Assembly (NCBI GenBank): GCA_013359255.1
Contig: JABWCF010000003.1
Span: 186,001-250,000, forward strand
Length of the DNA: 64,000 bases
From: Flavobacteriales bacterium
GTDB lineage: Bacteria > Bacteroidota > Bacteroidia > Flavobacteriales_E > Vicingaceae
Direction of reading: 5' to 3'
In this document: positions 31,550 to 38,341 of the stretch, one piece after another
Numbering within the stretch: the first letter of the stretch is position 1
Layout of the letters: every line of letters starts with the position of its first letter
Notes under the pieces: model-generated
What the model was told of the DNA's origin: nothing
Databases searched by the model: none
Seen by the model: only the letters and a program-made list of their open reading frames with translations
Position numbers and translations under genes: made by a program

Positions 31550-31672
31550 TTACATTAATCCCATTTTTGTTTTTACCCCTTTTTTTCCGTTGCATTTACG
31601 TCCGTTTGATCCGGCACAAGAAACAACAGCCAATGCGGCTACAAAAAGAAATACCCAAATTACTTTTTTCAT
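31550..31672 (-). CDS. Tiny (40-aa) lipoprotein, not in the ORF track
   Basis: Reading the minus strand from ATG 31672 gives a 40-residue protein with a textbook type II signal (MKKVIWVFLFVAALAVVSC, Cys at 19), followed by AGSNGRKCNGKKGVKTKMGLM and a TAA stop. The mature part is only 22 residues, basic, with one further Cys in the mature part. It is tightly placed ahead of the PrcB-like lipoprotein on the same strand (one base between stop and its start). Short lipoproteins with a KCNGKKG-like core look familiar from Bacteroidota, but I cannot name a family. Confidence 0.6.
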   Translation of the reverse strand: MKKVIWVFLFVAALAVVSCAGSNGRKCNGKKGVKTKMGLM

Positions 31673-36049: not shown

Positions 36050-36574
36050 ATGAAAAAGATTTTAGTACTAGTGTTAGCCTCATTATTTTTGGGATTTTTA
36101 CCAGCCTGCAAAAAAAGTTCGGTAAAAAAACAGTTGGTGGGGGAATGGACCGTTACAGAAATTGCTGTAAACGACCAACCCATAGAATTAACTGAAGTAA
36201 CTAATTCAGATTCTTTAGATATTACTTCCATAAGGGAAATGAATTTTTATCATTGCGAAAAAGTAGAAAAGGATAAAAAATGTGCTGGTTATATGACCGG
36301 AGTACTTAACAAATATGATGACCAGTTAAAAAACAAAGTCGTTTCCGGAATTCTTTTCCAATTTGAATACGAGATTCTAAAAAAAGACAAAATAAAGTTC
36401 ATTGTAAACTACGGGGCTCAGGATTTTTTTGGAATCAAATCAAACCTTTATAGTAAATTAACTTCAGAGTTTGAGGCTACCATTAAAGAAAGTTCTAAAT
36501 CTAAATTTATTTTTGAATTCTTAGAGGGAGAAAAAACAATAAAAATTAGCTTGGAAAAAAAAGAAAATAAGTAA
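36050..36574 (+). CDS. Small lipoprotein, lipocalin-like
   Basis: A 174-aa lipoprotein when started at ATG 36050 (MKKILVLVLASLFLGFLPACKK); the track start at 36008 lies partly in the preceding terminator and adds an unlikely N-terminus. After the lipobox, KKQLVGEWTVTEIAVN is the opening typical of the lipocalin-like small lipoproteins of Bacteroidota (GxW at the first strand). The rest is beta-rich with a C-terminal EKTIKISLEKKE. Ligand unknown. It precedes the cysteine-rich tandem array by 78 bases. Confidence 0.72.
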   Translation: MKKILVLVLASLFLGFLPACKKSSVKKQLVGEWTVTEIAVNDQPIELTEVTNSDSLDITSIREMNFYHCEKVEKDKKCAGYMTGVLNKYDDQLKNKVVSGILFQFEYEILKKDKIKFIVNYGAQDFFGIKSNLYSKLTSEFEATIKESSKSKFIFEFLEGEKTIKISLEKKENK

Positions 36575-36651: not shown

Positions 36652-36846
36652 ATGAAAAAAGTAATGTTATTTGTTGCCGTAGCTGCTTTTGCTGCTACTA
36701 CTTTCACTTCTTGTAAAAAGAATTGGACTTGCGAATGTTGTGTGGATATTCTTGGAACAAAAACTTGTTCTTCTGCCACTGCTAAACTGACAAAAAAAGA
36801 TGCAAAAGCTTGGTGCGAAAACAACAGCTATTGCAAATTAAAATAA
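36652..36846 (+). CDS. Cysteine-rich small lipoprotein, tandem copy 1
   Basis: A 64-aa precursor: signal with lipobox-like FTSC (Cys 21), then a 43-residue mature domain with six further cysteines (27, 29, 30, 39, 55, 61) arranged C-x-C-C-x8-C-x15-C-x5-C. A Lys-rich helix lies between (TKKDAKAW). All cysteines are conserved in the two neighbouring copies, which suggests three disulfides in the envelope. I do not recognise a named family. It is first in the array and has its own promoter; a 36-base hairpin follows the stop. Confidence 0.8.
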   Translation: MKKVMLFVAVAAFAATTFTSCKKNWTCECCVDILGTKTCSSATAKLTKKDAKAWCENNSYCKLK

Positions 36847-36860
36847 TTTAAAAACAATTA

Positions 36861-36896
36861 AATAAAAGCCATTTATGTATACAAATGGCTTTTATT
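36861..36896 (+). terminator. Hairpin between array copies 1 and 2
   Basis: Perfect stem AATAAAAGCCATTT / AAATGGCTTTTATT, loop ATGTATAC. It may be a partial terminator or an RNA processing/stabilising hairpin, since no promoter precedes copy 2. Confidence 0.7.
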
Positions 36897-36920
36897 TTAA
36901 CCCCCTTAATCCTAAAACTT

Positions 36921-37121
36921 ATGAAAAAAGTAATGTTATTTGTTGCCGTAGCTGCTTTTGCTGCTACTACTTTCACTTCTTGTAAAAAGAACTGGACTTG
37001 CGAATGTTGTGTAGACATTCTTGGAACTAAAACTTGTGCTGAAACAACTGCTAAAATGACTAAAAAAGATGCAAAAGTTTGGTGTGAAGATAACTCAAAC
37101 AACCTTTGCAAACTAAAATAA
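36921..37121 (+). CDS. Cysteine-rich small lipoprotein, tandem copy 2
   Basis: A 66-aa paralogue of the previous gene, started at ATG 36921 (the track start at 36885 lies within the hairpin). The first 70 or so bases are identical to copy 1; the mature part differs mostly near residues 40-62 (AETTAK, VWCEDNSNNLCK, two residues longer), yet every cysteine is kept. A 24-base leader before the ATG is nearly the same as before copy 3 but not copy 1, so copies 2 and 3 arose by a later duplication. Confidence 0.8.
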   Translation: MKKVMLFVAVAAFAATTFTSCKKNWTCECCVDILGTKTCAETTAKMTKKDAKVWCEDNSNNLCKLK

Positions 37122-37135
37122 ATTAAACCCTCAAC

Positions 37136-37161
37136 AAAAGCCGTTTACATAAAAGGCTTTT
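37136..37161 (+). terminator. Hairpin between array copies 2 and 3
   Basis: Stem AAAAGCC / GGCTTTT with loop GTTTACATAAAA followed by ATTTT, the counterpart of the hairpin after copy 1. Confidence 0.6.
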
Positions 37162-37188
37162 ATTTTAACTCCCTTAATCCTAAAACTT

Positions 37189-37383
37189 ATGAAAAAAGTA
37201 ATGTTATTTGTTACCGTAGCTGCTTTTGCTGCTACTACTTTCACTTCTTGCAAAAAGAACTGGACTTGCGAATGTTGTGTGGACTTTCTTGGAACTAAAA
37301 CTTGTTCTTCTGCTACTGCTAAAATGACTAAAAAAGATGCAAAAGCTTGGTGCGAAAACAATAGCTATTGCAAGTTAAAATAA
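37189..37383 (+). CDS. Cysteine-rich small lipoprotein, tandem copy 3
   Basis: A 64-aa third paralogue, differing from copy 1 at only a few residues (VTVAAFAA, VDFLGTK, AKMTKK). Six mature cysteines and the lipobox Cys are conserved. The identical 5' ends of all three copies suggest recent duplication or gene conversion. A terminator hairpin follows its stop, and the next gene starts just past that hairpin. Confidence 0.8.
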   Translation: MKKVMLFVTVAAFAATTFTSCKKNWTCECCVDFLGTKTCSSATAKMTKKDAKAWCENNSYCKLK

Positions 37384-37402: not shown

Positions 37403-37427
37403 AAAGCCACACTTAATGTGTGGCTTT
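37403..37427 (+). terminator. Hairpin ahead of the MauE/DoxX-like gene
   Basis: Stem AAAGCCACAC / GTGTGGCTTT, loop TTAAT, followed by a T run that ends at the ATG of the next gene. The next gene can hardly have its own promoter here, so it depends on read-through from the array. Confidence 0.75.
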
Positions 37428-37432
37428 TTTTT

Positions 37433-38341
37433 ATGAAGTTTCTTTCTATCATACTAAAGTCTATACTCGGAATATTTTTTATATTCTCGGGTTGGCTCAA
37501 ACTGGCACCCATAGAGCCCTTTGAGTTTATTTTTGTTGATTTGGGATTTGCCAACTGGACTTTTGCCCCTATACTATCAAGACTTGTAATAGGTACCGAA
37601 TTTTTGTTAGGTGTACTATTAATCAGTCAACTCTTTCATAAAAAGACCATCATTGCCTCCTTAGGGTTAATTCTATTTTTCTCCGTTTTTTTACTCTTTC
37701 TTCTTTTCTCAAAAGGAAACGATACCGATTGTGGATGCATGGGGATTCACTATTCAATGTCGCCCATAGAAAGTTTACTTAAAAATGCTGTTATTTTATT
37801 ATTGTTAGCCTTTGTATACCACAAAGGTGTTGAAATTCATTGGAGTTTTCAGAAATATGCACTAACTCTTTTTATTATTGCATCACTCAGTATGCCGTAT
37901 ATTTTAGAAGTTCCGGATTACAATGTACCCAATCCTTATCGCGATGAAACCGGATACAAAATGAAAATAGAATTATTAGATACAGAATGGAAAAATTATT
38001 CGAAAGAATTAGGCAGTGGAAAAAAAATTATTTGTTTCTTTAGCACCGGTTGTCGCTTTTGTCGTTTAGCCGGCTACAAACTTTCTATTATACAAAAAAA
38101 TTACGGAAAGCCAATACCTGCACACTTCGTTTTTTGGTCGGAAGGAGCCAATGTAGAAGAATACTGGCATGCCAGCAAATCTTTCAAATTCCCAAACCAT
38201 ACCCTACCAACCGAAAAATTTTTTCAATTAAGTGGCAGTGAATTGCCCGCTGTTTTTTTAATAAATAATGGTGTGGTTGCAAAAAAATTACCCTTCAGAA
38301 ATTTAGAGGAGAAAGAAATAACCGATTTCTTAAATCATTGA
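37433..38341 (+). CDS. MauE/DoxX-like membrane protein fused to a thioredoxin-like CXXC domain
   Basis: A 302-aa inner membrane protein with four or five helices in residues 1-155 and the cysteine pair DTDCGCMG (C100, C102) before the third or fourth helix, the MauE/DoxX hallmark. A thioredoxin-like domain follows from about residue 175, with FFSTGCRFC (C207, C210) as active site and a possible cis-Pro in ELPAVFL (P262). MauE is needed for disulfide formation in methylamine dehydrogenase. I infer electron relay between the membrane pair and the CXXC domain. I use ATG 37433; the track start at 37418 (GTG) lies inside the terminator. It overlaps the convergent SpoU gene by 12 bases. Confidence 0.82.
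   Translation: MKFLSIILKSILGIFFIFSGWLKLAPIEPFEFIFVDLGFANWTFAPILSRLVIGTEFLLGVLLISQLFHKKTIIASLGLILFFSVFLLFLLFSKGNDTDCGCMGIHYSMSPIESLLKNAVILLLLAFVYHKGVEIHWSFQKYALTLFIIASLSMPYILEVPDYNVPNPYRDETGYKMKIELLDTEWKNYSKELGSGKKIICFFSTGCRFCRLAGYKLSIIQKNYGKPIPAHFVFWSEGANVEEYWHASKSFKFPNHTLPTEKFFQLSGSELPAVFLINNGVVAKKLPFRNLEEKEITDFLNH

Follow-up and report, generated by a model that had tools for sequence, protein, structure and literature searches.

Three small cysteine-rich lipoprotein genes arranged in tandem are followed directly, on the same strand, by a gene whose product joins a MauE-like membrane domain to a thioredoxin domain (MauE-Trx), and such a pairing recurs in many families of the Bacteroidia. 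This recurrence points to the thioredoxin protein as an enzyme dedicated to handling the disulfides of the lipoproteins. The genes lie in a stretch of 64,000 nucleotides from a member of the Flavobacteriales (contig JABWCF010000003.1, positions 186,001 to 250,000), referred to here as the window, and their coordinates are collected in Table 1. The original prediction for this locus was concerned with the triplet and did not mention the recurrent partner gene directly downstream.

The triplet itself was correctly recognised. It consists of three head-to-tail open reading frames of 64, 66 and 64 aa, spaced 269 and 268 nt apart with the middle copy starting at 36921, and no further copy was found in the genome at E <= 0.01. 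Each product begins with MKKV...TSC, a lipoprotein-type signal suggested by the MKK start, a hydrophobic segment and a TSC at position 21, which relatives have too, and continues as a mature CKKNWTCECC...TC...WC...CKLK. Every copy has seven cysteines, one in the lipobox and six in the mature domain, and, as had been proposed, all of them are kept: C21 (lipobox), C27, C29, C30, C39, C55 and the last cysteine are present in all three. The identical 5' coding sequence of roughly 70 bases or more ascribed to the whole array is found only in copies 1 and 2, which agree over their first ~71 nt, while the third copy differs there by two bases. A hairpin does accompany each unit, one lying 3' of each copy.

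Table 1. Features of the lipoprotein locus (window coordinates)
Feature	Position	Strand	Description and basis
Lipocalin-like lipoprotein, upstream	36053..36574	+	common to the sister species and G014, not to most other loci
Copy A	36652..36846	+	64-aa small lipoprotein, mature CKKNWTCECC...TC...WC...YCKLK; ORF, family alignments A1/A2, AlphaFold2 models
Hairpin / bidirectional terminator-like element 3' of copy A	36860..36897		15-nt perfect inverted repeat; RNA fold z -5.35; terminator-like on minus strand
Copy C, divergent paralogue (AETT...EDNSNNLCKLK)	36921..37121	+	66-aa lipoprotein; ORF
Weaker hairpin 3' of copy C	37136..37161	+	RNA fold z -2.76
Copy B (FLGTK variant)	37189..37383	+	64-aa lipoprotein; ORF, sequence comparison
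Intrinsic-terminator-like hairpin between lipoprotein genes and MauE-Trx gene	37403..37427	+	RNA fold z -5.41
MauE-Trx	37433..38341	+	MauE-like membrane domain (CGCMG) and C-terminal thioredoxin domain (CRFC, cis-Pro); Pfam, alignment, conserved adjacency

The lipoproteins belong to a family that we define by a mature CKK start, C7, C9, C35 and C41 (the lipobox cysteine being C1) and a KKxA helix motif. Its consensus is CKK[DN][YWRH]TCxC...KKxA..C...C, the positions C1, K2, K3, C7, C9, the KKxA helix start, C35 and the last cysteine being constant among 23 diverse sequences, and a mature-only profile matches all three window copies at ~1e-14. At E <= 1e-5, the mature-domain profile detects members in 81 of the 395 Bacteroidia genomes sampled, from 42 of 196 genera; a phylum-wide draw gave members in just 3 of 396 genomes, which indicates a patchy distribution. 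That no characterised family would be found is true insofar as Pfam, NCBIfam and Rfam contain no model for the lipoproteins, Pfam and NCBIfam contain none for the relatives either, and the string CKKDYTC does not occur in the literature searched; the family is nevertheless widespread in Bacteroidia. The expected conservation of cysteines in relatives extends to four of the six mature cysteines class-wide, whereas C10 and C19 occur in few members. The array is conserved in a same-genus genome (L017), where the region is 91% identical and a triplet occupies the same place, and tandem arrays recur in other lineages, e.g., as three copies each in G422, G205 and G369. This genome is thus not alone in having either the array or the cysteine placement.

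Several resemblances to other families and elements were considered. The PG1828 family (NF050142) likewise comprises small Bacteroidota lipoproteins of ~59 aa with a similar signal peptide; however, the match reaches only 12-14 bits against a cut-off of 50 and covers mainly that signal peptide, which leaves the window copies outside the family. A double-stranded RNA binding motif (PF00035) was rejected at 15.8 bits (gathering score 23) in a protein that carries a signal peptide. The array was also rejected as a phage or plasmid feature, as no relatives were found in annotated phages or plasmids and IMG/VR holds only one (L074). Loci of genus g13 (e.g., L025, L028 and L032), from genomes of the same taxonomic family, contain arrays of shorter relatives of the type C[GS]xDECECT..., and no MauE-Trx was found within these ~3-kb loci. 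Elsewhere in the window, a 40-aa lipoprotein-like reading frame on the minus strand (31550-31672; MKKVIWVFLFVAALAVVSCAGSNGRKCNGKK...) adjoins a PrcB_C lipoprotein gene.

The proposal that the copies arose by recent duplication was not upheld. Within the window, the paralogs differ by a dS of 0.24-0.31, which is about the dS between orthologs (0.23-0.26), and the triplication is therefore older than the split from the sister species. Exchange or conversion between copies since that split, the other half of the proposal, is supported by the sequences: the order of the copies is A-C-B in the window and A-B-C in the sister species, the last spacer being kept by position, and copies A and B of the sister species are near-identical (dS 0.05). 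Copy C is closest to the third copy of the sister species. Across the six copies of both species the 5' half hardly varies (1-4 differences in 84-87 nt), and within-genome conversion is therefore not the sole possible cause. The suggestion of selection on cysteine placement is supported by an ortholog dN/dS of ~0.03-0.11 and with the class-wide retention of the four mature cysteines.

The product of the downstream gene matches the Pfam family MauE (PF07291) with E=3e-22 and 79.6 bits (cut-off 27), and profile matches to solved thioredoxins and plasmoredoxin (E 3e-4 to 1e-3), together with a CxxC and a cis-Pro, identify it as a thioredoxin-fold oxidoreductase. C101 and C103 (CGC), C208 and C211 (CxxC) and P273 (cis-Pro) are invariant in an 11-sequence alignment. 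Across 60 partners the thioredoxin CxxC was present in all by inspection, most commonly as CPHC (30/60 by script), which is the DsbA-type motif; the window protein has CRFC, not CPHC. The CGCxG motif is absent from the MauE part in 11 of the 60. Although the protein shares a MauE/DoxX-type membrane domain with the BT_3928 family (NCBIfam NF045576), this partial match of 65 bits falls far below the curated cut-off of 250 and involves the membrane part only (residues 7-177).

How regularly the two genes are paired was assessed in both directions. Starting from class-wide MauE-Trx genes, 55 of which had enough upstream sequence, a small cysteine lipoprotein gene precedes the MauE-Trx gene at a distance of under 250 nt in 41 cases if it is sought on the same strand and in 2 on the opposite one, compared with 4 of 113 control ORFs; kinship of families and species inflates these counts and their P values, and the safer figure is the number of families showing the arrangement, 15 of 16. 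Starting from the lipoprotein alone, the next same-strand gene encodes a membrane-anchored thioredoxin protein, mostly MauE-Trx, at 14 of 22 loci. Two of the next genes (L111:5365-6042 and L114:6331-7017) encode shorter membrane proteins in which the MauE domain is missing and the CxxC of the thioredoxin is retained; what the pairing conserves thus seems to be the thioredoxin part. At the level of whole genomes, with a sample universe that is approximate, the lipoprotein is present in 50 of 58 genomes with a full-length MauE-Trx. The family is uncurated. No description of the pairing turned up in the literature that was searched, a set to which most subscription journals do not belong, and a MauE-thioredoxin fusion with a small lipoprotein as its putative client may have been described before.

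A number of loci depart from this arrangement or add to it. L117 and L125 share a downstream AMP-ligase-like gene, and in L125 no MauE-Trx lies between the lipoprotein and that gene, which may reflect loss or insertion of the partner gene. In G004 (L197), the partner position upstream of MauE-Trx is taken by a cysteine-rich small lipoprotein, CSKDECKC...DDCDCNVKETC...DCKVE, that the family profile misses. In several genomes (L191 in G322, L201 in G095, L205 in G131, L208 in G298, and L210-L215), a second family of small cysteine lipoproteins, CKKCxxC...YPExCGxKxxL...C, is encoded on the downstream side of MauE-Trx or divergently from it, and MauE-Trx may therefore have more than one cysteine-rich lipoprotein as its client. 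The lipocalin-like and TPR genes upstream were not accepted as functional partners, since only close relatives share them; the lipocalin-like lipoprotein is probably a bystander.

The gap between the two genes has a recurrent feature of its own. Among the 41 pairs, the gap measures 18-234 nt (mostly 46-125), and 30 of these gaps contain a terminator-like hairpin where 0.5 would be expected from shuffles. In the window, the first and last of the three hairpins look like intrinsic terminators. The likely effect of the intergenic hairpin is that lipoprotein mRNA is abundant and that transcription continues only in part into the MauE-Trx gene. The Bacteroidota promoter motif TTTG...TANNTTTG has no site at the lipoprotein array, and its element TANNTTTG is depleted across the window (69 sites vs 98 expected); no claim about a promoter is therefore made.

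Two AlphaFold2 models of the mature domain reached a pLDDT of ~90, the five models obtained with the alignment averaging 74-90. The predicted fold comprises two strands (3-13 and 16-26), then a helix that starts at 28 and ends at 35 or 36, and a short strand at 41-43. A two-residue turn at 14-15 sets residue 10 opposite residue 19 in the models, and hence a cross-strand C10-C19 disulfide is the natural reading. The two cysteines behave as a unit in the family: both are found in 7 of 97 distinct sequences, the seven probably coming from one or few lineages, neither is found in 90, and one never occurs alone. C7 and C9 are modelled on the other face of the hairpin from C10 and C19, with C35 and C41 available as partners. 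Further cysteines also come in twos, as L007 has one additional pair and L067 has a similar one without C10/C19. With regard to location, the lipoprotein export signal (LES) of Bacteroidota requires acidic residues at +2 to +6, of the K-(D/E)2, Q-A-(D/E)2 or S-D-D type (PMC5080379). The window copies have KKNWT at these positions, with no acidic residue, and surface exposure is consequently not predicted; the lipoproteins are probably anchored in the outer membrane and face the periplasm.

On balance we lean towards MauE-Trx being a dedicated inner-membrane oxidoreductase for these periplasm-facing, disulfide-held lipoproteins. The mature domain would be a beta-hairpin and helix held together by two family-wide bonds among C7, C9, C35 and C41, joined in some lineages by the cross-strand bond C10-C19. 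In the chemistry, direction and topology that we infer, disulfide exchange between the thioredoxin CxxC and the lipoprotein would take place before the latter is exported to the outer membrane or in the course of its export, the MauE domain, usually with its CGC motif, would recharge the thioredoxin, and MauE-Trx would thereby form or reshuffle the lipoprotein disulfides (oxidation or isomerisation). A comparable scheme has been proposed for MauE and MauD with the disulfide-rich small subunit of methylamine dehydrogenase as their substrate. The intergenic hairpin would cause the substrate to be made in large excess over the enzyme, and the tandem lipoprotein genes would raise its dosage further. 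The window genome encodes a VKOR homologue, while DsbB was not detected in it. A general oxidant thus probably exists, and MauE-Trx would be a specialist.

This arrangement shares features with several known systems. In Paracoccus denitrificans, the membrane protein MauE and the thioredoxin-like MauD are encoded beside the cysteine-rich small subunit of methylamine dehydrogenase. The likeness lies in a MauE-family membrane protein and a thioredoxin-like part beside a cysteine-rich periplasmic protein; here, however, MauE and thioredoxin form one polypeptide, and the neighbour is a lipid-anchored domain of 44-46 residues. A mau cluster was not present at any of the 22 loci examined, and the window neighbours are TPR/OmpA-like and lipocalin-like genes rather than those of methylamine dehydrogenase, along with further genes which we take to be TrmH-like and MutS-like. 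VKOR-thioredoxin and DsbB/DsbA similarly join a membrane redox domain with a thioredoxin for making periplasmic disulfides. Unlike in those systems, the membrane domain of the window partner matches MauE and neither VKOR nor DsbB in a Pfam scan, and VKOR is separate in the genome. There, ~3.2 kb separate the gene for the VKOR homologue from a short MauE-like gene, both being surrounded by universal-stress-type genes (G000:C5:38706-42490). A role in disulfide formation of methylamine dehydrogenase has been proposed for MauE, and in Streptomyces, homologues of mauE and mauD were found by decRiPPter beside precursors with at least 8 cysteines (PMC7794033). Those clusters also pair MauE homologues with small cysteine-rich products, but the products are proposed RiPP precursors of actinobacteria, whereas the present product is a Bacteroidia lipoprotein for which a defined fold is predicted and beside which no further modification gene recurs.

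A different role for the same partners is conceivable, in which the lipoprotein forms the terminus of a redox relay at the outer membrane, MauE-Trx passing oxidising or reducing equivalents through the CxC pair (C7-x-C9) to other envelope proteins. The gene pairing would be equally expected, abundant expression would suit a shuttle, and the TCxC motif is conserved beside the lipid anchor. Against this, no known redox-protein fold was recovered: a sequence-profile search of the PDB with the lipoprotein and fold searches with its model both gave nothing significant, the best fold match having an E of 0.6. Moreover, the cysteine-free segments vary freely, although conservation of a docking surface would be required of a shuttle, and the extra cysteine pairs gained in some lineages are better understood as staples than as an active site. 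We therefore consider a relay unlikely. Its full, envelope-spanning version, with inner-membrane MauE-Trx charging abundant lipid-anchored CxC lipoproteins from which disulfides or reducing equivalents are passed on at the outer membrane, appears slightly less likely again; if true, it would in effect be a lipoprotein thiol carrier system in Bacteroidia.

It is also possible that the genes are neighbours by expression or ancestry only and that the lipoproteins are oxidised by VKOR or by a DsbA-like soluble protein. The VKOR homologue of the window genome could do so, and about a quarter of the MauE-Trx genes have no adjacent lipoprotein. Other observations weigh against a dedicated oxidoreductase as well, namely that family f41 has MauE-Trx mostly away from the lipoproteins (2/8 adjacent), that 17 lipoprotein-positive genomes gave no MauE-Trx match (an inexact figure, as G001 is counted yet carries the gene), and that the CGCxG motif is missing from some partners and the window CxxC is CRFC. 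Mere neighbourhood is nonetheless improbable given that the pair is maintained in nearly all families though the remaining neighbourhood changes, and that MauE-Trx and lipoprotein co-occur strongly. Least probable of all is a metal-binding or thiol-buffer protein (C-x-C...C...C) kept reduced for metal by MauE-Trx, for while four invariant cysteines can make a tetrahedral site and a periplasmic thioredoxin partner could be the reductant, the mature domain contains no histidine, the co-occurring and opposed C10 and C19 suit a disulfide, and CPHC is the commonest form of the partner CxxC.

About a fifth of the sampled Bacteroidia genomes encode such small cysteine lipoproteins, which match no model of a curated family. 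Their pairing with a specific membrane-bound thioredoxin provides a first testable function for them. For MauE, whose chemistry has so far been inferred only from methylamine dehydrogenase, the pair would offer a natural system of one enzyme and one substrate.
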